A stretch of 23,841 nucleotides of DNA from a virus, in IMG/VR virus record IMGVR_UViG_3300042313_000018, positions 1 to 23,841 of that record; one strand, 5' to 3'. The translations under genes were made by a program, and so were the position numbers. The notes below the pieces were generated by a model. That model had not been told where the DNA came from, did not search any database, and saw only the letters and a list, made by a program, of their open reading frames with translations. Below, piece after piece: positions 893 to 23,718 of this stretch (position 1 is the stretch's first letter; every line of letters starts with the position of its first letter).

Positions 893-2899
893 TTAATTGA
901 CGATATTGTATTCCCAATATTTTTCTTGGCAACACAAAAATGGTTCACATTCTTGATTTTCTTCTGGGCAATCACCAACTGGAGAATCATCGTTGTTCTT
1001 GATATTTGCCATTAACCTTACTCGGTCAACTGTAGCTGCTCCGGTTAGGTTGACTTTGATCTGGAACTCGCTTCCCTCTACTGATGGGATGCCTGCCAAG
1101 TCATTGCACTCACTTGGGTCGGGCGTGTTAAACTTGTAGCGTTTGTAGCGATTACCACCTCGTTGCGGGAAGCATTCGGTTACTTTAGGTGAACATGGAT
1201 CGCAACCAAATGTCGTAGGAACTTTTAGTTCTGACCAGCAAGGATTAGAGTCAGCACGGAAATCAACATAGCTATTTACTTCCCCCTTAATCTCACTCAT
1301 CCACATTTCTCCACCAGTAATCTTTTTGCGGAGGAACTTGTTGGTAGCCCCACTTCGGTTGAAGTCATACCTACCAGTTGTGAAGAAGGATTCAATTTGT
1401 CTTGTTCCATTCGGGCCATAGTCATCACCTTGAGCTATGGTAAACTCGTAAAGTCGGTTCTTATTGTCTGCGTCAAATGAGAATCCAAATCCACGCTTCT
1501 CACCTTGGATTAATGCAGACAAAAGTTGAGTTGGTCTGATGCCCGTCCAGATACCATTCCAACGAAATTGAAGTTGTGCGTCTGGTGCGGGTGAAGAAGA
1601 TTGGTCAAGGTCGAGAACCACCATCCCACGATGATACCTATTCAGTCCTTCTACACCTTCTGCGCGGTAGGTCTGTGGTGCTACTGTGCTGATAAGATAG
1701 TTGTTGAAGAACATTGTAGAAGCGAACTGCTTCATCCAAGGCGTATCATTTTCTACCCACTTGTTGACTTCTCTTGATAGTTTGCGAAGTGAGAAGTATC
1801 TGGCAAACTCAGATTGGCTATTAGAATAGAATGCCCAACCATCGTGTGATCTAAACCAAAGCTCAGAGTTGGCTAATCCAAGGTATGGCGATGTGCATCC
1901 GCGCCCAAGGAGTGAGATGCGCTGGATGTTTGAAGTGTTCCATTGGCTTCTTGGGATAGATACATCCATTGAGAATGCTCCGTTACCAGTAAGGATAACA
2001 AGCTCACCTTGTCCACGGAGGTTAGTTCCGATCTGTGGCATGACTTTCATCCCAGTAATATTCCCCATCATGGCGGGAGTCGAGAACGCACCGCCTTCTG
2101 CCCAGTATCCTATCTCTGTAAAGTTCTCTGTATTTTTTGTATCAGTAAATCCACCACCATAGATGATGTCAGATGCGTAGATTTGATTGAACTTGTCAGC
2201 TACAAAAACGCGCCCAAAAGCATACTCCATGATCGTTCCAATCGGCATCTTTGCCAAGTATGGATTCAATCGGTAGGCAGGTAGCTTGACTGTGCCTGTC
2301 CCTGTTCCCCTTTGAGTGTCTGTGATGACTGCTGTAAACTTAACTCCAATCGTATTGGATGGTGCGCCGATCAGCATGAAGTTTGTAGTTCCAACCGATA
2401 CAATCTCGCAGTAGTCTCCGTTTTGGATTTCACTTGCTGTCAGTGTTCCCAATACTCCGTCCCATGCTATAGCATTCTGGTAGCCATTTTGGATGTATGC
2501 CCGATCTTCAGCTTGTACGAAGAATGTGTGCATCATGCCCGGATCGTTGCCCTCGATGATCTTGTAGGCAAATGCTCGGTTGTTTACCATCTTCAGAAAG
2601 TAGATAATCCCAGATACCGATAGCAACATTCCATCGCTCGTTCTGAAGTTAGTCGCTCGATATGGATACGCACCTTGGAAGTTACCACCAAGAATATCGT
2701 TAACGATAGTCTCGGCTTCTCCATCTCCAGCAATAATCGGGATGTTTCGAATGCTTGGTCTGGTTCGGTTGATACCGCCTCGGAATGTTCTATTAACCGA
2801 CTCTGATACTACAGACTCTGGTAAATACGATGGATGAGTATCTGCGTCTTGCGCGATGATACTTGTGAATCCATCAAAGACTGATCCTTCTGCTGGCAT
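893..2899 (-). CDS. Probable tail nozzle / tail hub-like virion protein (668 aa)
   Basis: A 668-residue soluble protein made of repeated short beta elements and aromatic turns (for example GNFQGAYPYRATNFRTSDG, then FVQAEDRAYIQNGYQNAIAW), compatible with a beta-propeller-rich tail nozzle such as T7 gp12-like or P22 gp10-like proteins. Size and position next to fibre genes fit a short-tail component. The last 130 residues are Cys-rich (FGCDPCSPKVTEC, CNDL, DCPEENQECEPFLCC), which is unusual and suggests disulphides or metal binding. The start codon overlaps the stop of the upstream fibre gene (TAATG). One copy of the dispersed palindrome lies inside it at 2694-2709. Virion role is fairly secure; the nozzle call is inference from fold impression and context. 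Confidence 0.55.
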   Translation of the reverse strand: MPAEGSVFDGFTSIIAQDADTHPSYLPESVVSESVNRTFRGGINRTRPSIRNIPIIAGDGEAETIVNDILGGNFQGAYPYRATNFRTSDGMLLSVSGIIYFLKMVNNRAFAYKIIEGNDPGMMHTFFVQAEDRAYIQNGYQNAIAWDGVLGTLTASEIQNGDYCEIVSVGTTNFMLIGAPSNTIGVKFTAVITDTQRGTGTGTVKLPAYRLNPYLAKMPIGTIMEYAFGRVFVADKFNQIYASDIIYGGGFTDTKNTENFTEIGYWAEGGAFSTPAMMGNITGMKVMPQIGTNLRGQGELVILTGNGAFSMDVSIPRSQWNTSNIQRISLLGRGCTSPYLGLANSELWFRSHDGWAFYSNSQSEFARYFSLRKLSREVNKWVENDTPWMKQFASTMFFNNYLISTVAPQTYRAEGVEGLNRYHRGMVVLDLDQSSSPAPDAQLQFRWNGIWTGIRPTQLLSALIQGEKRGFGFSFDADNKNRLYEFTIAQGDDYGPNGTRQIESFFTTGRYDFNRSGATNKFLRKKITGGEMWMSEIKGEVNSYVDFRADSNPCWSELKVPTTFGCDPCSPKVTECFPQRGGNRYKRYKFNTPDPSECNDLAGIPSVEGSEFQIKVNLTGAATVDRVRLMANIKNNDDSPVGDCPEENQECEPFLCCQEKYWEYNIVN
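2694..2709. promoter_or_regulatory. Dispersed palindrome copy 2, inside the nozzle-like gene
   Basis: The 14-bp perfect palindrome TATCGTTAACGATA (2695-2708) matches the intergenic copy at 7779-7792 base for base. Here it is coding, supplying codons for Ile-Val-Asn-Asp. It may be an intragenic operator or a chance coding match; its identity to an intergenic copy makes chance less attractive. Confidence 0.4.
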
Positions 2900-3816
2900 T
2901 ATACAACAATACGAAGTTCACCAGTTACAGTTTTGTAAACGCTATTTACAACAAGCCCACCTGTAACTGCTGCTGCATTGTTTGCGTAAGTTGAAATATT
3001 TGTAATTGCAATTGATTTAGATGGAGCTGGTTCTATGTAAATATTTCCCAAAAATGATTTAATAACTCCATTTGTTCCATCTGTTGTTAAACGCAAATCA
3101 AAATCATCTAAAGTTGGACTTTTTATGTCAATAAATGGAACTCCGGGAGAATTACTGCCAACTTCAATATTTTGACTCATCAAAGTTACGCTTGCTTTAA
3201 TATTTCCAACAACATCAAGTTTTTCAGTAGGTGCTGTAGTTCCAATTCCTACTCTATTTCCAGCATCAGATTGAATATGAACATCTGCGCTTGGTGCATA
3301 TATTTTAATATTTTGACCAACTTTTGTAGTTACATATCCATTTAATCCATCCAGCGTTCCAACGCGCATATCATAATCTTCAGAAACTGGGCTTTTAAAA
3401 TCAATAAATGCGTCATTTGTATTTCCTACTTCAATATTACCTACATTCAAAATTCCAGTAGTAGTTATATCTCCAGAAGAATTTAACGATCCAGAATTTA
3501 TTGCTCCCGTAGTAGTCAATGGTTGGCTACCAAGATCAACTGGGCCAGATTGAAGAATGTTATTTACATTAGTAACAAACTCAACTTTACCAGTAGAATC
3601 TTTTCCAAGAACAGTGCTGTTCGCTCCGTTTGTCCAAGTCAAATTACCAGCACCATCAGTCTTTAGGACTTGCTGGGCAACTGGACTTTGAATCGTCTTC
3701 TGACAAGCGGCAGAGTCTTCTACTACCAATCGTTTCCCATTGGCAGTTGTTTCAAGTGGTTCACACAACAACGGAAAGTTCGTGTCGCATGGTGGGCAAG
3801 GTGTGCAGTAGCTCAT
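2899..3816 (-). CDS. Tail/head fibre protein with Cys-rich N-terminus and internal duplication (305 aa)
   Basis: The N-terminus carries MSYCTPCPPCDTNFPLLCEP, a Cys/Pro cluster also seen in spirit in the 101-aa protein at 7468-7773. The body is beta-repeat fibre sequence. Residues about 127-180 and 216-270 are a degenerate duplication, each starting NIEVG and carrying FIDxKSP followed by a D-rich turn. Between them lies the common fibre motif VGIGTTAPTEKLDVVGNIKA (about 189-208). The C-terminus ends in a short beta strand (VTGELRIVV). It is 3 bp downstream of the upstream spike gene and overlaps the next start. Fibre role is well supported by composition; its ligand is unknown. Confidence 0.65.
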   Translation of the reverse strand: MSYCTPCPPCDTNFPLLCEPLETTANGKRLVVEDSAACQKTIQSPVAQQVLKTDGAGNLTWTNGANSTVLGKDSTGKVEFVTNVNNILQSGPVDLGSQPLTTTGAINSGSLNSSGDITTTGILNVGNIEVGNTNDAFIDFKSPVSEDYDMRVGTLDGLNGYVTTKVGQNIKIYAPSADVHIQSDAGNRVGIGTTAPTEKLDVVGNIKASVTLMSQNIEVGSNSPGVPFIDIKSPTLDDFDLRLTTDGTNGVIKSFLGNIYIEPAPSKSIAITNISTYANNAAAVTGGLVVNSVYKTVTGELRIVV

Positions 3817-3818
3817 AA

Positions 3819-3912
3819 TTTAAATTGCTGAAATGATAAATGCTAATAGTTCTTCATAACGAATCCCATAACGATTTCCTGCGGGACGATATTCTTGGAT
3901 GATATTACCATC
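3819..3912. repeat. Direct repeat A, copy 1 (3' end of tailspike gene)
   Basis: These 94 bp match 5593-5686 with two differences by eye. They encode the last residues of the S74 domain (including YRPAGNRYGIRYEELLAFII) and the stop. Identity at the DNA level, beyond protein conservation, indicates recent duplication or gene conversion between the two spike genes. Confidence 0.85.
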
Positions 3913-5589
3913 TTCATCTTTTGTTTCTTGAATTTCATCCCATTTATCGTAGCAAAACATTCCATATTCATTTGCATTTAACCCTTGTTCGGCAAATGCA
4001 GATTCTACTTCTTGAGCAAGAATGCCAATATGAATCCTTGCTTTGTCTCCCTTTTTCTCTACAGCATCATTGAATTTAAATGAACGAATTAAAGATTTTA
4101 AACGATTTGCAACAAGTTTTTCTGCATTAGACAATTCTTTGATTTGTTGCTTTTCACGCTTATCAGAAGTATTGATTGTTGGAGTTACAGCAAAAATTTG
4201 AGTCCACCTTAAAACACCTTGTCCCAATTGATATAAATTATCTACTGATGGATATGTATTGCTTCCACAAAGAATTTGTCCTCCATCTAATAAAATACCA
4301 GAAGTTTGTCTTGTAATTATTTTGTTTATTCCTGATCCAAAGGTTGTTTCATACGGATACCCTCTTTTTGAATATCCAGAAAAACGAGTGCTTGTCTCAT
4401 TATTAGTTATTGGAGTTGTGCATTCATACATTCCACCAACAATCATGTTATCATCTGCTCCAGAGTCTATTAACATTCCAACGGAACCACCATCAAGAGC
4501 TAAGGAAGTAAGCCTGTTTTTTCTGGAAGTAGATTTAACATGAAATAATGTTGCTGTATTAAAAGCTTGGCCAATAGCTTCAATTTTTGTATTAGAAAAA
4601 CCACAACTTTGAGTATTATTTAATTCAATTCCTTTTCCATTTAAACCAGTAATATAAAATGTATTACTTGTAAAATTTGATTGAAAAAATGGCCCATCAA
4701 TAATAAGAGCATTTGTATTGCCCCAAACATGAGTATTTGAAATATTAACAAAAAGTGCAGCACCTATTCTTATTCCAATAGTATTATTGTAAATATTACA
4801 ATGACTAAAAATAATACCTTCGCATTGATGACTGATTGTTGTTAAAATTTTTACTCCAGTTCCAAATCCAAGAACTTCAACTCCATTTAACTTTGAACTA
4901 ATACATGAATCAATAATAATACCATCTCCGTCCGCTGTTCCTGAGTTAATAAAATTACAATTTGTAATATTTGATTGAAAACAATTAAATATTTCTAATC
5001 CTTTTGCCCATGAGTTTCCAGTAACATTGATATTTTCTAAAATACAATTCACTTCCCCAAGTGGTTGCCAAGGATTCCATAGTAATTTAATTGAAGTTAA
5101 TGCGCTTGTGCTTGTGGTAACAATTCCTATATTTTTTAAATCAACTGTTTGTGCAACATTTGCTATTACTTGAAAAGAAAAATTTAATCCATTTGTGCCT
5201 TGAGTGAATTTCAATATAGAAGAATAACAACTATTACCAAATATTTCAACATTTTTATTTGAACTTGTTAATTCACTTGAGCAAATATAAATTCCTTCTG
5301 GAATATAAACAACTTTCCCTGTATTTATAGCAGCTTGGATCGCCGCAGTATCATCAGCGACACCATCACCAACCGCTCCGAAATCCTTCACATTCATTAC
5401 ATCAGCAAACCGATTTGCCAATGTCCTTGCCGTAGTCGATCCAGTTGCAAGAGCCGTAGCACTCGATGCTGACCCTACAAAGCTGTTTGCCGTCACTACG
5501 CCAGCGTTGCTCACAGTCATCTGGTCAACGCCACCTACCCCGATGATTGCCTGTGTTCCGTCTGTGGATGCTTTAATGTTTGCGCTCAT
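3820..5589 (-). CDS. Tailspike, pectate-lyase-like beta-helix with C-terminal S74 chaperone (589 aa)
   Basis: Residues 50-85 carry a particle-proximal segment (GSTTARTLANRFADVMNVKD) that leads into FGAVGDGVADDTAAIQAA, the typical first turn of a pectate-lyase/glycosyl-hydrolase-28-like beta-helix. About residues 90-460 are Asn/Ile-rich helix rungs (for example NITNCNFINSG). From about 471 comes a peptidase S74 intramolecular chaperone: TSDKREK holds the Ser-Asp cleavage site and the Lys of the Ser/Lys dyad (Ser about 475), followed by RIHIGILAQEV. The chaperone is expected to trimerise the spike and cleave itself off. The body is markedly more AT-rich than the first 85 codons, suggesting domain exchange. 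A polysaccharide target is inferred. Confidence 0.85.
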   Translation of the reverse strand: MSANIKASTDGTQAIIGVGGVDQMTVSNAGVVTANSFVGSASSATALATGSTTARTLANRFADVMNVKDFGAVGDGVADDTAAIQAAINTGKVVYIPEGIYICSSELTSSNKNVEIFGNSCYSSILKFTQGTNGLNFSFQVIANVAQTVDLKNIGIVTTSTSALTSIKLLWNPWQPLGEVNCILENINVTGNSWAKGLEIFNCFQSNITNCNFINSGTADGDGIIIDSCISSKLNGVEVLGFGTGVKILTTISHQCEGIIFSHCNIYNNTIGIRIGAALFVNISNTHVWGNTNALIIDGPFFQSNFTSNTFYITGLNGKGIELNNTQSCGFSNTKIEAIGQAFNTATLFHVKSTSRKNRLTSLALDGGSVGMLIDSGADDNMIVGGMYECTTPITNNETSTRFSGYSKRGYPYETTFGSGINKIITRQTSGILLDGGQILCGSNTYPSVDNLYQLGQGVLRWTQIFAVTPTINTSDKREKQQIKELSNAEKLVANRLKSLIRSFKFNDAVEKKGDKARIHIGILAQEVESAFAEQGLNANEYGMFCYDKWDEIQETKDEDGNIIQEYRPAGNRYGIRYEELLAFIISAI

Positions 5590-5592
5590 GTT

Positions 5593-5686
5593 TTTAAATT
5601 GCTGAAATAATAAATGCTAATAGTTCTTCATAACGAATCCCATAACGATTTCCTGCGGGACGATATTCTTGGATGATATTGCCATC
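5593..5686. repeat. Direct repeat A, copy 2 (3' end of second tailspike gene)
   Basis: Partner of 3819-3912, same orientation, about 1.77 kb away. Recombination between the copies would delete or swap one complete spike gene. Confidence 0.85.
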
Positions 5687-7471
5687 ATTATCTTTTACTT
5701 CTTGAATTTCATCCCACTCATCATAGCAGTAAAATCCATATTTGTTAGGATCAAGACCATGTGATTTCATTATGTCTCCAACTTGTTGTGCCGATGCGCC
5801 AAAATGAATTCGTGCATTTTCACCTTTTTGGTCAATAGCTGAATTGAATTTGAACTTACGAAGATTTTGTTTTATTTCAAGAGCTGCTGATTTTTCTGCA
5901 TTTTCAATTTCTAAAAATGTTTTTTCTCTTGCATCAGAAGTATTGATTGTTCCTGTTTGAGCATATACAATTGTCCACCTGTTACTTGGTGAACCAAGCG
6001 AAGTTGTAATATCATCAGCCGCATTAAATATTGGTGTAGATAATCTAATATTTCCACCTACCAATGTTAATGTTCCTGTTCCAATAACAGAACTACCTCC
6101 AGATGCAATTATTCTTGAATCAAAAATTGAATTACCATTTGAATAAAAATCAATGTATGGCGTGCTTGCAACCGAAGTATTACCTATTTGAATATATGTG
6201 TTATTCCCATCTGGGCCAATGGCTAAAATTCTTTGATTTAATGAATTATATGAATTTAAAATATATCCATTTCCTTCAGATTTAAATGCTGATTTTTGAC
6301 CAATGGATTGAAACCCATGCCACCAGTCACCCCTTGCGATAAAGGCTGATTCACATTTATTTGGGCCTAAATTTACAGAATCAAATCCCCAAACTTTTGG
6401 ATTTGCGCCGGGCGCACTGGGATTTGCTTTATAGTTGAATGATCCAAGTTCAAATCCACAAGCCTGATTTGCGTGACCAGCAGCTGTTAAAGCAACATTA
6501 GCATTATGCGCCCAAACTTTTGTAAAAGCATTAACAATAAATCCAGTTCCATTTGTCGGAGTGCTTGGTGTTCCACCGCCACCAAATAAATACCAATCTG
6601 TAACAGTAAATTCTGTTCCATTTGCATTCCATGATTCTACAATTCCAGACCATTTAGCGGGGCTGTGTTTTGTATCTATAATCATTCCTTTACGGAATTT
6701 TTTTACTGCATCTGGAGATGGTATTGTTGCAGTTGTTACTGTTTTTGATGTATATGTTCCAGACGATGAATCAAGTGTTGCTGGAGGAGACGCATTATCA
6801 ACATATATTCCAACAGTGTCTCTATCTGCATAAAAAGCAAGATCAGATGGACTTGTTATTCCTAATATTTCAGCTTCAGAATCTGATGTTCCATTATTCT
6901 TAAAAGCCATTCCACAAGCAAAATCAGTTGATCCATGGTGTTCGTCTGTTTGCCTTTGGGCAGTCCTCCAAACCTCTCCATTTATATTATTTGGATTTGA
7001 TAAAATTGCAGCTTGGTTTAATTCCCATACAACTTCTTTTCCGTATGTATCAACCATAGTAGAAAGTTTATATGTGCCAGCAGGGACATAAATATAACAT
7101 ATAACTGCTCTTGGAACTCCAGTTCCTCTTGATCCATTGATATTGTTTGCTGCTGGTGCAGCTTGTGCCGCAGCACTAAATGCCGCAGTATCATCAACTA
7201 CTCCATCCCCAACCGCGCCAAAATCTTTGACATTTACTACATCAGCGAAACGATTTGCAAGCGAACGAGCGGTTGTGCTGCCAGTAGATTTAACAAGACC
7301 ATTGATATTTCCGCTTGCATCTACACTCAACAAATCCTGCGTAGTTGCGCCTGCATTGCCCCGCGCCAGCTTAATCGTGCCGTCTGGTGACGATGGCACT
7401 GCCAGAGTAAAGTTCTGCGTTGCTGTCGGTGATTGTCCTACTTGGACTGCGTTTGCTTTGATGAGACTCAT
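5594..7471 (-). CDS. Second tailspike, beta-helix start with C-terminal S74 chaperone (625 aa)
   Basis: The architecture parallels the neighbouring spike. An N-terminal segment rich in small residues is followed by GSTTARSLANRFADVVNVKD and FGAVGDGVVDDTAAFSAA (about residues 64-102). A divergent body of about 400 residues follows (for example FACGMAFKNNGTSDSE and WWHGFQSIGQKSAFKSEGNG). The S74 domain runs from about residue 508: TSDAREK contains Ser about 512 and the dyad Lys, then RIHFGASAQQV. The last 28 residues are identical to those of the other spike, whereas the bodies do not resemble each other. The start codon overlaps the stop of the 101-aa gene (ATGA). Receptor or capsule binding, possibly depolymerising, is inferred. 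Confidence 0.83.
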   Translation of the reverse strand: MSLIKANAVQVGQSPTATQNFTLAVPSSPDGTIKLARGNAGATTQDLLSVDASGNINGLVKSTGSTTARSLANRFADVVNVKDFGAVGDGVVDDTAAFSAAAQAAPAANNINGSRGTGVPRAVICYIYVPAGTYKLSTMVDTYGKEVVWELNQAAILSNPNNINGEVWRTAQRQTDEHHGSTDFACGMAFKNNGTSDSEAEILGITSPSDLAFYADRDTVGIYVDNASPPATLDSSSGTYTSKTVTTATIPSPDAVKKFRKGMIIDTKHSPAKWSGIVESWNANGTEFTVTDWYLFGGGGTPSTPTNGTGFIVNAFTKVWAHNANVALTAAGHANQACGFELGSFNYKANPSAPGANPKVWGFDSVNLGPNKCESAFIARGDWWHGFQSIGQKSAFKSEGNGYILNSYNSLNQRILAIGPDGNNTYIQIGNTSVASTPYIDFYSNGNSIFDSRIIASGGSSVIGTGTLTLVGGNIRLSTPIFNAADDITTSLGSPSNRWTIVYAQTGTINTSDAREKTFLEIENAEKSAALEIKQNLRKFKFNSAIDQKGENARIHFGASAQQVGDIMKSHGLDPNKYGFYCYDEWDEIQEVKDNDGNIIQEYRPAGNRYGIRYEELLAFIISAI

Positions 7472-7773
7472 ACGATTGTATAGGTGCTGCCTGATGGCAC
7501 TGTTAGTGTGACTCCGGGGTTTACTGTGATTGGCCCTGCTGACATTGCGTTGCGGTCAGTTGTGATTGTGTAGTCAGTTACCATTACTTGGTCATTCTCG
7601 TAGAATACTCCGAAGGTATTTCCACCAGTTGGAGCCTTGCCGCCCGTTGTGCCTCCAGCGGCCTCAACTGCGATACGAGCATAGTAAGCTGCACGATTTA
7701 CAATCTCATTCAATGCCGCCTCACTTGGGCCACATGGATTGCATTTAGAACTTCTGGAATTTCCGCAACTCAT
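7468..7773 (-). CDS. Small Cys-rich fibre module (101 aa)
   Basis: It begins MSCGNSRSSKCNPCGPSEAA, a Cys cluster, followed by a helical stretch (LNEIVNRAAYYARIAVEAAG) and a Gly-rich hinge. The last 45 residues (ENDQVMVTDYTITTDRNAMS, then PGVTLTVPSGSTYTIV) form a short beta-strand-rich tail typical of phage head or tail fibre ends. Its stop overlaps the start of the downstream tailspike by 4 bp, so the two are probably made together, perhaps as adaptor and spike. A perfect palindrome (7779-7792) lies 5 bp upstream of its ATG, and no Shine-Dalgarno is seen. The adaptor role is inference. Confidence 0.6.
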   Translation of the reverse strand: MSCGNSRSSKCNPCGPSEAALNEIVNRAAYYARIAVEAAGGTTGGKAPTGGNTFGVFYENDQVMVTDYTITTDRNAMSAGPITVNPGVTLTVPSGSTYTIV

Positions 7774-7777
7774 AGTT

Positions 7778-7793
7778 TTATCGTTAACGATAG
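7778..7793. promoter_or_regulatory. Dispersed palindrome copy 3, between endolysin and fibre module
   Basis: TATCGTTAACGATA at 7779-7792 is a perfect 14-bp palindrome in the 31-bp gap between the endolysin stop and the ATG at 7773. It sits where a ribosome-binding site would be expected and contains none. It separates the lysis cassette from the spike genes, a sensible place for control. Confidence 0.6.
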
Positions 7794-7804
7794 TTTAGTT
7801 TTAG

Positions 7805-8344
7805 TCAAGCGTTTTCCACCAGTAAATATGGAATCGTCTTTTGGTTATATCTATTCATTTCTGAATAGACGAGGTTAATGAACCCATCCCATTGCGAGGG
7901 GTAGATCGTCTGGCATCCTTCCGATGAAGTTGTTTTGTATCCCCCCTTATGGATGTTTATCGCAATCCCCATCGAATCACCTTCACCATCTCGCGTAACA
8001 GGGAGTTCTTCTTTTGCGTTAGCAGGTCGCAACGCTGGATAGCCACCTCCGGGTTTACTAATCCCATGATTGCCTTTACGAAACCTATGCACGCCCGTTT
8101 TAAGCACCGCAATACCCTTCTTGAAAACAGAAGGATCGGTATTAGCGTTAAACGTAGCGTGAACAGAAGGAGATAATAATATGATCGCATCGTCGTAGAT
8201 ACCCCTTTGATTGCCTGATGGCTGGAATGTCTCTGAGTAGTATCCACGAATCCCAACCAAACAAACCAAGTCCTCGATCCTCGCTTTGATTACCATTGCG
8301 AGAGTCTTTTCCTTGGCCTGCTGTGGTCTGGAGCTGGGAATCAT
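7805..8344 (-). CDS. Putative endolysin, L,D-transpeptidase (YkuD)-like (179 aa)
   Basis: The C-terminal half carries GIAINIHKGG (His132) followed by TTSSEGCQTIYPSQW (Cys144). This resembles the YkuD-type active site, in which a His is followed by a Ser/Thr-His-Gly-Cys motif; here Glu replaces the usual His before Gly-Cys and the His-Cys spacing is short. Known L,D-transpeptidase-fold enzymes act on peptidoglycan cross-bridges; cleavage rather than transfer is expected in a lysis enzyme. There is no signal peptide, so release would depend on a holin. The ATG overlaps the stop of the holin-like gene immediately upstream (TAATG). An alternative is an uncharacterised phage peptidase of the same fold. 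The lysis role is supported mainly by context. Confidence 0.6.
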   Translation of the reverse strand: MIPSSRPQQAKEKTLAMVIKARIEDLVCLVGIRGYYSETFQPSGNQRGIYDDAIILLSPSVHATFNANTDPSVFKKGIAVLKTGVHRFRKGNHGISKPGGGYPALRPANAKEELPVTRDGEGDSMGIAINIHKGGYKTTSSEGCQTIYPSQWDGFINLVYSEMNRYNQKTIPYLLVENA

Positions 8345-8514
8345 TATCCTTTACGAACTACATTGATAAGTCCCACAAGGCCGAGTCCCGCAATAATGAT
8401 GGACTCTTGAAGTTCTGGTTCAAGTTTAACTCCGACTGCCGTAGCAATAAGAATAATGCCGCGCCATGTGCTATTCTCTGATAGCCGTTGAAGTAGTATA
8501 TTTACAATTTTCAT
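8344..8514 (-). CDS. Small holin-like membrane protein (56 aa)
   Basis: Translation gives 56 residues starting MKIVNILLQRLSENSTWRGI. Two short hydrophobic segments, about 18-29 (WRGIILIATAVG) and 38-52 (SIIIAGLGLVGLINV), are separated by a turn rich in Glu and Pro, and the protein ends RKG. Length and two-helix pattern fit small class II holins. It lies directly upstream of the endolysin, overlapping its start, and its own ATG overlaps the stop of the lipoprotein gene. A Shine-Dalgarno-like AAAGGA sits ahead of the start inside the upstream gene. Another small phage membrane protein cannot be excluded. Confidence 0.65.
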   Translation of the reverse strand: MKIVNILLQRLSENSTWRGIILIATAVGVKLEPELQESIIIAGLGLVGLINVVRKG

Positions 8515-8669
8515 TTTTTTGTTCCTTTTGGTTCTGGAAGTTCATAAGTGATCCTTCCAAAGTCTGTCTGTAGAGAAATTCCAAGTGTTTCGCATCCGGT
8601 CAGAAATGCCATTGCGAGAAATGCAAGCGAAATTAAGATAAGTCCAAGTGCGATTTTTTCTGGTTTCAT
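8511..8669 (-). CDS. Small lipoprotein, possible outer-membrane spanin-like (52 aa)
   Basis: Translation gives 52 residues. It begins MKPEKIALGLILISLAFLAM, a lipoprotein signal sequence, and reaches the lipobox FLTGC with the acylated Cys at 26. The mature part is only 27 residues (ETLGISLQTDFGRITYELPE, then PKGTKK). Position inside a lysis cassette between two small membrane proteins suggests an o-spanin-like role in outer-membrane disruption. No recognisable inner-membrane spanin partner with a long periplasmic coiled coil is present, so the function is tentative. Overlaps on both sides (ATGA) show tight translational coupling. Confidence 0.6.
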   Translation of the reverse strand: MKPEKIALGLILISLAFLAMAFLTGCETLGISLQTDFGRITYELPEPKGTKK

Positions 8670-8842
8670 TGTTTACGAATTTTGTTAAACATATAAACTA
8701 TCGTCATAATTCCTGCAATTAAAGAAACAAATAATCCTCCAAGCCGCAAACCAGCCTCAATGTGTGGCATTAAACTAATCATGAATCCAGTAAAGCTGGT
8801 AGTTGTTCCGATAATTCCTGTGAATGTTGTGTTGTCGTTCAT
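8666..8842 (-). CDS. Small membrane protein of the lysis cassette (58 aa)
   Basis: Translation gives 58 residues starting MNDNTTFTGIIGTTTSFTGF. A strong membrane segment spans about residues 35-53 (GLFVSLIAGIMTIVYMF), preceded by a weaker hydrophobic or amphipathic stretch (about 8-26), and the tail NKIRKQ is positively charged. The layout could be a second holin, an antiholin or a pinholin-like protein. The start overlaps the stop of the 104-aa gene (TAATG), and its stop overlaps the lipoprotein start (ATGA). Which of the two small membrane proteins is the true holin cannot be decided here. Confidence 0.6.
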   Translation of the reverse strand: MNDNTTFTGIIGTTTSFTGFMISLMPHIEAGLRLGGLFVSLIAGIMTIVYMFNKIRKQ

Positions 8843-9156
8843 TATTCAATTTCTGGTTTTGATAAAAGTGTAATTATTTCAGACATTGGAATTACATCAA
8901 CAAAAAGAAAAAGTTCTTTTGGAAGTTGTGAAAATCCTGATGAATAAAGACCATTTTCACCAATTTCTGTTAAAAGATCAGCGCAGAGCATTTTCCGACC
9001 ATCGATGAGATCGACGGGCGAGGCGACATGGTTAGGGTTGCCATGCTCGGCTTGGACGGCGGTGAGTTGCGCGGCGAGTTCGGGAGAGAATACAAGCGCG
9101 AGGTCTTTCGTGGTCTCGTAGCTTACGGGCTGTGTGATGAGGTCGGCGAGTGTCAT
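8842..9156 (-). CDS. Hypothetical protein upstream of the lysis cassette (104 aa)
   Basis: A 104-residue soluble protein starting MTLADLITQPVSYETTKDLA, with the segment LVFSPELAAQLTAVQAEHGN and an acidic end (LLSKPEIE). I do not recognise the family. It is linked by 4-bp overlaps to the structural gene upstream and the membrane-protein gene downstream. The first half of the gene is clearly richer in G and C than the second half, with the change near 8990-9000, which hints at a mosaic origin. A small virion or chaperone-type protein for the preceding adhesin is possible but unsupported. Confidence 0.55.
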   Translation of the reverse strand: MTLADLITQPVSYETTKDLALVFSPELAAQLTAVQAEHGNPNHVASPVDLIDGRKMLCADLLTEIGENGLYSSGFSQLPKELFLFVDVIPMSEIITLLSKPEIE

Positions 9157-9935
9157 GGGATGGTGGCGGCGAGGGCGGTCATGAGGTTGGATACACGGGT
9201 GTTGAGCGCGGCGAGGTCTAAGGATTCCCCGATGGAGTAAAAAGCAAGACGCCCATTTGAGCGGTTACTAATCGCTCCATTAAGATTTGCGCCGTAAACA
9301 AAAATGTTGCCATTGTATGTTCCAGTAGATGCACTTGTAGAGGTTCCCGTCGCTCCAGCCCATCGCCAATTAGAACTATTGCTCGCAGTCCTTGAAACGC
9401 CCGCCAAGCTTGTGCCAGTTCTGTTTAATGGTGCGCCCGCCCCTGTATTTCTTATTGCAAAATTAACATTTGTCGAAATATGGCTATATACAGCCGGAGT
9501 TGGAGTTGTTCGCAACGCTCCTAAATAATACAAATTAATAACGGTTGCGGGTGTTGATACCCACACGGAAAGGCTGGCATTATTTTGAGGATCGGCATCA
9601 GCAGCGCGATTGCTGTTAAGATATTTAGTCGTTGTATTTCCAATCAGACCAGTTTTGCGGTTATAGTCGCCGGAAACGAAATTAAAATTGGTAGGAGCTG
9701 TGCCAACAAGCGGAACGAGTGCGCCTGAGAGCGTTCGCGCACCGGCGAGAATGCAAGAGGCTTTTATTGCGCTCCAGATTCCGTCGGATTTGCATCCAAT
9801 TACAAAATTATTTATTGCAACTTTTACTGTATTCTCTAATAATTGACCATCAACGGATTCAACAGCATTAATGTATGTTTTAGCATCTGCATCTAAAACC
9901 GTAATAAAAGAATATGGATTTGTTACGAATATCAT
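9153..9935 (-). CDS. Virion adhesin-like beta-sandwich protein (260 aa)
   Basis: The N-terminal 85 residues include DADAKTYINAVESVDGQLLE and a segment rich in small residues (ASCILAGARTLSGALVPLVG), then FVSGDYNRKTGLIGN. The remainder is Asn/Ser/Thr/Gly-rich beta sequence (for example WRWAGATGTSTSASTGTYNG) resembling the concanavalin-like sandwiches found in phage structural and receptor-binding proteins. The end (LDLAALNTRVSNLMTALAAT) is a helix. The start has one of the few plausible Shine-Dalgarno sequences here (AGAGGA, 8 bases before ATG). It overlaps its neighbours by 4 bp on each side. Fold and role are inferred. Confidence 0.55.
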   Translation of the reverse strand: MIFVTNPYSFITVLDADAKTYINAVESVDGQLLENTVKVAINNFVIGCKSDGIWSAIKASCILAGARTLSGALVPLVGTAPTNFNFVSGDYNRKTGLIGNTTTKYLNSNRAADADPQNNASLSVWVSTPATVINLYYLGALRTTPTPAVYSHISTNVNFAIRNTGAGAPLNRTGTSLAGVSRTASNSSNWRWAGATGTSTSASTGTYNGNIFVYGANLNGAISNRSNGRLAFYSIGESLDLAALNTRVSNLMTALAATIP

Positions 9936-10456
9936 GCTTGCGTTCCTCTGATAATTACTTTTAATCCAGTTGCATTTGCTGATCCAATTTGGTCAACATC
10001 AATAGTAATTTCAGCATCATCAGCAATGTTTGTGTCAGATATTACTGGAGATATTGCTGCTGTAGTAGATGTTTTTTCTCCATTATCTATTGTAATTTTA
10101 GTTGATAAAATTGATGCTCCATTTTTATTTATATCAACAGTAAATATATTTCCAGATATTTGAGCGGTTGTTAATGATGCACGAACACTGGTTACATTCA
10201 TAGCATAAGGCATTCTAAATGTAACTTTATTTGTCCCAGAAGTAATCAATGATACTTCGTCAGAACAAGCAATTAATAAATCCGCAGGGTTTGCTCCAGA
10301 ACCGCCAGTAAAATTCCATACAACACCAGTTCCGGGGTGTCTGAAATAAATCTTTTGATCCGTATGGTTTATTGCGCCTTCACCCAAGGCGAGATTTGCA
10401 GTCGTAGGAATATTCCCAGCAACAATTGATTTTTTTAATTTTATGACATTGGCCAT
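9932..10456 (-). CDS. Fibre-like protein with particle-binding N-terminal motif (174 aa)
   Basis: The N-terminus (VIKLKKSIVAGNIPTTANLA, then LGEGAINHTDQKIYFR) is the common fibre-base motif in which a basic strand is followed by a Pro, a GE turn and a Lys/Tyr-containing strand. Residues about 60-174 form a beta domain with YAMNVTSVRASLTTAQ, DINKNGASILSTKITIDNGE and DIDQIGSANATGLKVIIRGT, similar in pattern to a small domain recurring in tail proteins of aquatic phages. It follows a G-C-rich hairpin in the gap after the coiled-coil fibre. A short fibre or fibre tip is the likely role. Confidence 0.6.
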   Translation of the reverse strand: MANVIKLKKSIVAGNIPTTANLALGEGAINHTDQKIYFRHPGTGVVWNFTGGSGANPADLLIACSDEVSLITSGTNKVTFRMPYAMNVTSVRASLTTAQISGNIFTVDINKNGASILSTKITIDNGEKTSTTAAISPVISDTNIADDAEITIDVDQIGSANATGLKVIIRGTQA

Positions 10457-21462: not shown

Positions 21463-21831
21463 TGAATTCAAGGCATTTCTTCGTTTGTTACATGAACTAC
21501 ATCCGCGAGCCTTATGCTCAAGTTTAGTTCCAAGAACTTTATCTGTAGCCGCAGCTACTGTGTGAATAGCTTGGGCGATACGATCACCAAGACCATCGCT
21601 ATACCAACAACGATCACTTGGTTGCCGTTGGCAAGTTTGATCCTCTACCATTTGTTCGATGTTACTTGGAAGATCAACCCCATTGGATCGGTAGTCTTTT
21701 TGAATATTCTGAATAAGACTATTCCATGTGCTTCCATAAACTATCGCTGGATATACGACATCATTGCGCTTGATCTCATATCGCCAGAACCACCCTCCGA
21801 CAGGTGCGAGGTTTTTGTTTTTCAGTTTCAT
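21454..21831 (-). CDS. Hypothetical protein with C-terminal Cys motif (125 aa)
   Basis: A 125-residue protein with an aromatic N-terminal part (GGWFWRYEIKRNDVVYPAIV), a polar middle with several Cys (EDQTCQRQPSDRCWYSDG) and the end ARGCSSCNKRRNALNSL, where Cys-x-x-Cys sits in a basic helix. I do not know a named family. It is the first gene of the leftward run, divergent from the terminase, with 36 bp between the two starts. Packaging-adjacent position could suit a small-terminase or adaptor role, but no helix-turn-helix is visible, so no function is assigned. Confidence 0.55.
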   Translation of the reverse strand: MKLKNKNLAPVGGWFWRYEIKRNDVVYPAIVYGSTWNSLIQNIQKDYRSNGVDLPSNIEQMVEDQTCQRQPSDRCWYSDGLGDRIAQAIHTVAAATDKVLGTKLEHKARGCSSCNKRRNALNSLS

Positions 21832-21845
21832 CTTGCCTTTGCACG

Positions 21846-21874
21846 GAAAATATATTTTCTTATTGATATGTCAA
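21846..21874 (-). promoter_or_regulatory. Possible divergent promoter with A/T palindrome
   Basis: Leftward TTGACA (21874-21869) is followed after 16 bp by TATTTT (21852-21847), a sigma-70-like arrangement aimed at the 125-aa gene and the portal. The -10 overlaps a perfect 14-bp palindrome GAAAATATATTTTC (21846-21859) that fills the gap between the divergent starts. The leader would be only about 10 bases. The call is by consensus alone. Confidence 0.35.
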
Positions 21875-23718
21875 GAGTTTTTTCTTCAAACAAAGGTATT
21901 CGTCGCTACGGAATTCAATTCCCAGAAAACATGGATGATCTTGGAATTGAGTTATACTGCTACGCTATAAGCCGAGGAGAATACGGAAAAGATTATTGCA
22001 TCAAACAAAATATAAATCTTTCAGATTTTAAATTACTTTCCCCGTCTGAGCATTTTTTCAATGCAGTTAAACTCCAATGGCCGACTGAAGTTTCTATTTA
22101 CAATAGGGGATATACCAATACTCAGTTAATTAGAACCTTAGATGGACTTTGCAGTAACACTGATATTTGTTTGGCGGGAGCAGCTTCAATGGGAAAAAGT
22201 TTTCCAGTTGGTCTTTGGATTTACCTTGATTGGTGTGCCGCCCCGCACTGCACTTCGTCTTGGGTAGCTACTACTACTCTGGGTGCGTCCGAAGATCGCA
22301 TATGGGGTATCATCTCAAAACTCTATAAATGCGCTCGCGTTCAGATAGGTAAACTAATTGATTATCGTCACATGATTGTTTGGGGTGGAGCAACAAACGA
22401 TGAAGAAAAAGAATACGATAATGCTATCAAAGCTCTTGCATTTCCATCTGGTAATGAAGGTCAAAAGGCTGTTGATACCACCCGTGGTCGTAAGAATGAT
22501 CGAATTCGTCTTGCACTTGATGAGTTGCCAGAAATGGAAATGGGCGCGATTACCTCAAAAGTAAACTTAGGTGCAAACAACGATGTTACCTTTATCGGTA
22601 TTGGAAACCCATCTGCTGGTGATAATCCTCACACTCGTTGGGCTATGCCGAAAGACCAATCAAACTTTGATTCAGTCAACCCAGATATGGACAAGTGGGA
22701 GACTGAAACTGGAGTTTGTTTATTTTACAATGGTATGCGTAGCCCAAACTTCGCCGCGCCTGCCAATGAACCATCTCCGTTTCCGTTTCTTATGGATCGT
22801 AAGAAGCAGGAAATGATGCTGAAACTTTGTTATGGAGATGAGAATGCGATTGACTATGTTCGTAACGCTATTGGTTGGTGGCCGAAGACTGGGTTTGCTC
22901 AAACAATTATTACCGCTGATCTGATTCGTAATGCTGATACAAATGAAGAACCTATTTGGGATTCTGAAGGATTCACTAAAGTAGCAGGCTTTGATACTTC
23001 TTTTACAATTGGAGGTGACCGATGCGTTCTTACTATAGCTAAACTTGGTTTTGTTCGTGGCACTCGTAATCGCGTTATGTGGTTGGAAAGTCAGAAGGTA
23101 ATCCAACTATCCGCTAACGCTGCGGCTGAGTTTGAAATCCAACTGGCTACTGAAGTTGTAGCTTTATGCCGTGCCGCTGGTGTTCAGCCTCAGAAGTTTG
23201 GTATGGACGTGTCTGGTGATGGTGGACGAGTCGGACAAGCTATCATTCGTGAGTGGCTACGTTTTGACTCTACAGGAGTTTCAATTGCTCTTATATCATC
23301 TATGGGTAAACCTACTGACCGACTCGCGGCAGAGGTCGATAAACGCCCGTGTAAGGATGTTTACGATAGGTTGGTATCTGAGTATTATTACTCTTGTTAT
23401 CACGCCTTCAAGAGTCGTGTTATTTTTGGTGTTGATGCAGCATCTGAGTTGGCGCGGGAACTTTGCCTTCGTAGATACACAATCAAAAATAAGAAGATCG
23501 CCATTGAGACTAAGGATGATCTCAAGGGAAGAACAGGTTACTCGCCGGATTTGAGTGACAGTTTAATCTATGCACTCGAAATGGCGCGGCGTAATGGACT
23601 TGTTTTTATCGGAAACGATAAACCAGTTCCAACTAACCGATTTTGGGCGCGTGACGAGGTATCAATTGATACCACTCAAGACGATGACTACGGATCAGAC
23701 GATAACGGAGACTGGTAA
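21868..23718 (+). CDS. Terminase large subunit (616 aa)
   Basis: The ATPase half has a Walker A-type loop CLAGAASMGKSF (Lys about 110), a Walker B IRLALDEL (Asp-Glu about 218-219) and a coupling motif IGIGNP (about 243-248). The C-terminal nuclease half has the acidic positions of an RNase H-like fold: GFDTSF (about 376), FGMDVSGDGG (about 447) and DLSDSLIYAL (561 and 564). This motor cuts concatemers and pumps DNA through the portal. It is the only large gene on the + strand. The frame is open back to 21514, but I chose ATG 21868 because the extra 118 codons lie antisense to the 125-aa gene. The C-terminal tail is acidic (DTTQDDDYGSDDNGDW). Confidence 0.85.
   Translation: MSRVFSSNKGIRRYGIQFPENMDDLGIELYCYAISRGEYGKDYCIKQNINLSDFKLLSPSEHFFNAVKLQWPTEVSIYNRGYTNTQLIRTLDGLCSNTDICLAGAASMGKSFPVGLWIYLDWCAAPHCTSSWVATTTLGASEDRIWGIISKLYKCARVQIGKLIDYRHMIVWGGATNDEEKEYDNAIKALAFPSGNEGQKAVDTTRGRKNDRIRLALDELPEMEMGAITSKVNLGANNDVTFIGIGNPSAGDNPHTRWAMPKDQSNFDSVNPDMDKWETETGVCLFYNGMRSPNFAAPANEPSPFPFLMDRKKQEMMLKLCYGDENAIDYVRNAIGWWPKTGFAQTIITADLIRNADTNEEPIWDSEGFTKVAGFDTSFTIGGDRCVLTIAKLGFVRGTRNRVMWLESQKVIQLSANAAAEFEIQLATEVVALCRAAGVQPQKFGMDVSGDGGRVGQAIIREWLRFDSTGVSIALISSMGKPTDRLAAEVDKRPCKDVYDRLVSEYYYSCYHAFKSRVIFGVDAASELARELCLRRYTIKNKKIAIETKDDLKGRTGYSPDLSDSLIYALEMARRNGLVFIGNDKPVPTNRFWARDEVSIDTTQDDDYGSDDNGDW
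23606..23621. promoter_or_regulatory. Dispersed palindrome copy 6, inside the terminase gene
   Basis: TTATCGGAAACGATAA, perfect 6-bp arms around GAAA. It encodes Ile-Gly-Asn-Asp-Lys near the terminase C-terminus and lies about 60 bp upstream of the start of the small downstream ORF. As + strand RNA it would be a short hairpin with a GNRA-type tetraloop. Confidence 0.45.

Follow-up and report, generated by a model that had tools for sequence, protein, structure and literature searches.

How can a phage replace the part of a tailspike that meets the bacterial surface and keep the part that holds the spike to the virion? This question is raised by two adjacent spike genes, here termed spike A and spike B, in the IMG/VR virus record IMGVR_UViG_3300042313_000018. 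The window analysed is the entire record, 23,841 bases that are classed as linear and are probably a fragment. Comparison with relatives indicates that the two genes very probably encode trimeric beta-helix receptor-binding depolymerase spikes, assembled from position-specific docks, a common joint (ARxLANRFADV.NVKDFGA), exchangeable bodies and S74 domains (Table 1).

The two proteins share the segment GSTTAR-LANRFADV-NVKDFGAVGDG and within it the joint, (A)R[TS]LANRFADV.NVKDFGAVGDG, and their bodies give no meaningful global alignment. Because NVKDFGAVGDG by itself is the ordinary start of a PF12708 beta-helix, nothing about this portion is remarkable when taken alone. In the DNA, the joint regions (5342-5445 and 7182-7285) form a 104-nucleotide (nt) repeat of 76% identity, and the 94-nt 3' ends, which differ only at window positions 3835 and 3907, sit within a 170-nt repeat of 87% identity. 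The original prediction, made from the letters alone, had described two spikes with a shared N-terminal segment, twin 94-bp ends and unrelated bodies, and all of these are present as it stated.

The relatives compared are loci on metagenomic contigs, labelled with numbers such as L027 and L052. Relatives of the 668-amino acid (aa) tail protein that follows the spikes are encoded in at least 210 viral-contig stretches, and those of a conserved 179-aa gene that precedes them in 169; complete loci spanning the interval between these two genes gave 63 distinct layouts for the cassette comparison. Dock A has a pairwise median identity of 87% among 19 relatives (residues 1-46), and the bodies of these spikes one of 21%; for dock B the values are 86% among 17 relatives (residues 1-57) and 18%. 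The 73 spike bodies compared fall into 41 families. The flanking 668-aa tail protein of some relatives is 89-98% identical to that of the window, yet their spikes are entirely different. The joint is common to the spikes in nearly all of the ~30 multi-spike loci compared, and PF12708 was found in 69 of 81 joint-bearing spikes scanned. The idea of a constant dock with a variable receptor part was thus right in that docks are conserved and bodies vary, but there are two position-specific docks, and the joint alone is common to both. The same two bodies diverging uniformly along the genes, a pattern named in advance as contrary to such a cassette arrangement, was not seen when spike bodies were compared across relatives; the opposite was found. 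The spike A body as query in viral contigs gave no confirmed relatives and belongs to a weak family at 34-35% identity among the spikes of this clade; relatives of the spike B body occur in other phage contigs at 40-47%.

Several relatives carry closely similar bodies on different docks. The bodies of L027, which has an MPLTK-type dock ("D"), and L052, which has dock A, are 100% identical in amino acid sequence over 534 aa; their DNA match is 2,020 nt long at 97% identity, the flanking DNA reaching only 80-84%, and in both loci it opens on the first joint base (L027:4931 and L052:7437). A second pair on different docks (L014 and L137; 95% aa identity over 477 aa) likewise has a DNA match that begins at the first joint base (4162 and 10455). 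In two more distant comparisons, L036 with L075 (dock B; bodies 72% identical) and L011 with L081 or L074 (61%), the DNA matches for L036/L075 and L011/L081 begin 10-12 nt into the joint. The start of the joint is GCAAGGACATTGGC-like on docks A and D and GCTCGTTCGCTTGC-like on dock B, so for L036/L075 and L011/L081 the opening codons belong to the dock and only what follows moves with the body. At their 3' ends, the L027/L052 match continues into the next gene and the L014/L137 match passes through it. The docks, the joint, the replacement of bodies across docks and the 5' boundary of the swap can be read directly from these alignments. The route would be homologous recombination, with a 5' crossover within the joint and a 3' crossover downstream of the body, either in the next gene or in a shared S74 end.

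One-, two- and three-spike layouts occur among the relatives, as do dock-only stubs. These are mini-genes (L018 4030-4296, L073 4298-4564 and L103 5789-6046) in which short C-terminal modules resembling the ends of other spikes are attached straight to dock B (88 aa, twice, with the same 3' part) or dock A (85 aa), with no body between them; the dock seems to be kept, and capped, upon loss of the body. In L048 a dock-A spike is present as two overlapping open reading frames (ORFs; 7159-7905 and 7893-8924), the second with S74, reflecting a frameshift, an assembly error or a true split.

Base composition follows the same division. The first 90 codons have a G+C content (GC) of 50-51%, against 31% in the body of spike A and 36% in that of spike B, which agrees with the earlier by-eye estimate of a start near 50% and an A/T-rich body in the 589-aa spike. 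Between joint and stop codon, GC at third codon positions (GC3) is 14% in spike A and 16% in spike B, and 44-54% in the core genes of the window. Across 53 spikes of the clade, both GC and GC3 of dock plus joint exceed those of the body in every case, whatever the body family, with mean GC3 of 38% and 16%, respectively. Because third positions show the shift most, it is not solely a matter of amino acid makeup. The AT-rich bodies would fit an origin in an AT-rich pool, or may reflect relaxed codon selection. The 305-aa fibre downstream of the spikes is also low, with a GC3 of 19%.

The bodies themselves are probably enzymatic, and both spikes would act as depolymerases. PF12708 (Pect-lyase_RHGA_epim) scores 67.1 bits in spike A and 41.7 bits in spike B, where it covers the start only. 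The spike B body matches a solved tailspike depolymerase (24qj, E=4e-24) and the tailspike of Pantoea phage AH01 (39% over 93% of the query). The predicted model of spike A is a beta-helix near AlgE epimerases and the CBA120, Sf6 and Dettilon tailspikes, with a mean predicted local distance difference test score (pLDDT) of only 58.

At the C-terminus, PF13884 (gathering cut-off 22 bits) scores 40.3 bits in spike A and 29.4 bits in spike B, and both domains have a serine and a lysine five residues apart. MYRF has S578 and K583 at the same spacing, a pair said to be equivalent to the self-cleavage dyad of endosialidases (PMC3742443). The S74 domains would chaperone trimerisation and cut themselves off. 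The S74 chaperone had been taken for a constant part of the design, but it is present in just 13 of the 81 joint-bearing spikes and is one of several C-terminal modules. Nor is the near-identical 3' end a design feature as proposed: among the ~30 multi-spike loci, a long 3' end shared between spikes occurs in this genome only.

The S74 of spike A is heterogeneous. Before its last 36 residues it is identical at 48-52 of 81 positions to L142, L160 and L141 (A-type) and at no more than 42 of 80 to B-type domains; over the last 36 it matches spike B at 34 residues, L102 at 32 and A-type domains at 17-19. Over the last ~94 nt, the DNA of A and B is 96% identical, and either is 84-87% identical to L102 and L103. 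The run of sites at which A equals B at the 3' end exceeds that in all 20,000 permutations of the polymorphic sites (p<=5e-5). The spike A domain is, on these matches, a chimera, its last ~36 residues being derived from the lineage of spike B. Gene conversion of the spike A tail by B-type sequence is likely the best explanation, and the last ~94-125 nt would then have been overwritten by, or exchanged with, a spike-B-type S74. An alternative that we also considered, given that position A of L102 holds a B-type S74, is replacement of an older B-type S74 at position A with the crossover in the tail.

Could the twin ends have arisen without recombination? Strong constraint on the C-terminus of S74 might keep them alike, and a GNRYG.RYEEL segment is indeed well conserved in many of the S74 ends examined. 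However, where A and B share a residue, the codon is also identical in DNA at 28 of 30 sites in the tail, compared with 36 of 53 upstream, and L102, which is identical to B at 74 of 80 residues upstream, reaches only 87% to it in tail DNA, whereas A reaches 96%. On this codon identity and the L102 tail DNA we rejected plain constraint, which is very unlikely. An artefact of metagenome assembly is very unlikely too: the window is a metagenomic contig, but the tract holds two mismatches, identity beyond it drops gradually to 87% and then 70%, and the DNA directly after the stop codon differs between the spikes. The repeats might instead serve as an active switch, in which recombination from joint to joint, or from one 3' end to the other, would remove or exchange spikes in a single population. 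Whole-gene units are indeed flanked in frame by direct repeats, of 94 nt (98%) and 104 nt (76%), and relatives vary from one to three spikes with dock-only stubs; the 94-bp repeat, however, was seen in no other genome of those compared and is therefore not a general mechanism, and no recombinase was identified, no search aimed at one having been made. We give the switch little probability.

Tandem duplication of one gene, with bodies that then diverged fast between two constrained ends, could also account for the gene order, the joint and the S74 family that the spikes have in common. Against this, the docks are different sequences that recur at fixed positions across relatives, the S74 heads belong to two separate lineages, and the same positions in relatives hold unrelated bodies, often without S74. 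The relatives that duplication predicts, in which the two positions hold homologous bodies at graded divergence, were not seen in the loci compared. We rejected simple duplication, on the distinct position-fixed docks, the two S74 lineages and the unrelated bodies, as very unlikely.

What would the docks attach to? Most likely the 101-aa protein encoded just upstream is an adaptor fixed to the virion, onto which docks B and A would plug. Of the layouts, all 18 that encode the 101-113-aa form of this protein with both its N- and C-terminal parts carry docks A and B, always in the order B then A, and the 45 others carry neither; physical docking is what this genetic co-occurrence suggests. In other layouts, such as L008, L034, L039 and L126, a joint and body are fused to the invariant N-terminal half of the 101-aa protein with nothing between, and this half is therefore probably the virion anchor. 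The C-terminal 46 residues resemble the C-termini of marine phage tail fibres (54% for P-SSP7 gp17, 67% for Vibrio phages). In cyanophages with this C-terminal module, short uncharacterised or fibre genes come next, so that it may mark a branch point. Adaptor variants of ~212 aa (L025, L035, L043 and L119) have collagen-like GxTG repeats between the invariant N- and C-terminal halves. The N-terminus of the 305-aa fibre also bears a joint and spike body in two relatives (L036 and L067). Both N-termini are cysteine-rich (C3, C11 and C14 invariant in the adaptor; C4, C7 and C10 in the fibre), perhaps reflecting a shared mode of attachment to the virion.

A number of observations weigh against exchangeable bodies on adaptor-borne docks. 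Codon identity of the joint between docks is only moderately raised (0.52 against 0.38 expected), and protein function as well as exchange may keep the joint. The loci are metagenomic contigs, and single examples of a swap may be assembly chimeras; three datasets contain the L014 layout and one the L027 layout. The model of the adaptor has a mean pLDDT of 43, too low to use, and so lends docking no structural support. Pfam detects no T4gp10-like domain in the 101-aa protein, such as the anchors of K1-5 (gp37) and KP32 carry (PMC6872550). Finally, adaptor and docks may occur together through common descent of a single sub-lineage and not through contact, the layouts being phylogenetically non-independent.

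Table 1. Features of the spike region, in window coordinates.
Feature	Position	Strand	Remarks
Spike A	3820..5589	-	589 aa; second spike in transcription order; PF12708 beta-helix and PF13884 S74
Spike B	5594..7471	-	625 aa; first spike; PF12708 start, body like tailspike depolymerase 24qj, S74
Dock A, spike A residues 1-53	5431..5589	-	restricted to position-A spike
Dock B, spike B residues 1-67	7271..7471	-	restricted to position-B spike
Joint of spike A, ARTLANRFADVMNVKDFGA, residues 54-72	5374..5430	-	
Joint of spike B, ARSLANRFADVVNVKDFGA, residues 68-86	7214..7270	-	
Exchangeable body of spike A, residues 73-474	4168..5373	-	low GC3
Exchangeable body of spike B, residues 87-511	5939..7213	-	low GC3
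Predicted S74 autocleaving chaperone of spike A	3823..4167	-	Ser475/Lys480 in TSDKREK; chimeric, A-type head and B-type tail
Predicted S74 autocleaving chaperone of spike B	5597..5938	-	Ser512/Lys517 in TSDAREK
94-nt 3' end of spike A	3819..3912	-	92/94 identical to 5593-5686; putative gene-conversion tract
94-nt 3' end of spike B	5593..5686	-	
101-aa protein, inferred adaptor	7468..7773	-	invariant N-terminal half; C-terminal half like cyanophage P-SSP7 gp17 C-terminus
305-aa fibre	2899..3816	-	conserved N-terminus (~80 aa), variable body

Swapping at a joint is a design already known from other phages. In Kuttervirus (Ackermannviridae), receptor modules were apparently swapped at a GTTAVSL motif; the spikes TSP1-TSP4 likewise have position-specific N-termini, and near-identical receptor modules sit on different spikes, with similarity starting at a conserved motif at the dock-body boundary (PMC8432352). 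Here, too, the same receptor module is found on different docks, with similarity from a shared motif onward. The systems differ in that Kuttervirus branches via XD (gp10-like) domains inside TSP2 and TSP4 (PMC8432352), whereas a separate 101-aa protein is the candidate adaptor here; the joint sequence is another, and the bodies here begin at the PF12708 start. The anchor-branch systems of K1-5, KP32 and KP34 resemble the present one in combining an anchor, or here a candidate adaptor, with second spikes that have short conserved N-terminal peptides, by which they attach in those systems, and in having single-spike, two-spike and truncated-spike variants within one group (PMC6872550). Position-specific conserved N-terminal docks are present here as well; because the T4gp10 domain was not found, we do not file the system under the T4gp10-type anchor-branch family. 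Conserved DNA motifs also flank the receptor domains of receptor-binding proteins in E. coli phages, where the 3' motif is non-coding and terminator-like (PMC10408124), whereas the 3' homology here is coding, lying in the next gene or the S74 end. The S74 domains have sequence matches to the solved S74 / intramolecular chaperone (CIMCD, ICA) domains of endosialidases, the neck appendage 3gud and the T5 L-shaped fibre 4uw8; unlike known S74 systems, this genome holds two S74 lineages, one with a tail apparently converted from the other. These comparisons give good support to the view that the phage group, rather than the design, is new, being without cultivated relatives and having unusually many natural swaps. 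Less ordinary are two details, the twin S74 with its probable gene conversion and the wide sharing of the joint.

How far is the joint shared? Within the clade it links bodies to docks A and B, a third leader, the MPLTK-type dock and the N-termini of the 101-aa protein and the 305-aa fibre. As a tblastn query it gave no match at 1e-3; at E<=10 it matched Vibrio phages only, with E from 2e-3 upward. We took these weak matches as a lead because a stretch of ~41 joint residues is 78-88% identical in the unrelated Vibrio phages 234P9 (L195), 2.275.O (L196) and pVa5 (L197), with beta-helix or tail annotation. The 349-kb record of Vibrio phage 2.275.O has four joint places. It is possible, though we hold this only tentatively and think it doubtful, that the joint serves as a standard for interchange far outside a single phage group, standing ahead of spike bodies in unrelated Vibrio phages. 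If true, uniformly AT-rich bodies would form a circulating common pool that supplies many phages through a single connection point.

Phages keep pace with changes in bacterial surfaces by swapping spikes. This clade supplies many natural experiments, in which one body sits on differing docks or one dock bears differing bodies, and comparing them lets the exchange point be mapped to a single base. The arrangement offers a rule for dividing spikes into dock, body and chaperone when metagenomic phages are annotated, and makes it possible to test what governs the pace of receptor switching, a short joint held in common or the replacement of whole genes.

Searches of the portal-sized, capsid-sized and 668-aa tail proteins against cultivated phages gave no match, nor did the 668-aa tail protein against 84,980 genome species, which leaves no clue to the host from that search. 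In transcription order, the minus strand encodes portal-, scaffold- and capsid-sized genes (names that reflect size and order alone), a fibre-rich stretch, the 179-aa gene and the 101-aa gene, followed by spike B, spike A, the 305-aa fibre and the 668-aa tail protein. A terminase-like ORF (21514-23718) lies on the strand opposite to the portal-sized and capsid-sized genes. The window also contains a second dock-body cassette locus (9932-10456), which encodes a 174-aa protein and has counterparts in L018 (32-1492), L050 (1815-3134) and L052 (1663-2307); residues 1-53 are 96-98% conserved in the relatives, and the remainder is replaced by unrelated, longer bodies.

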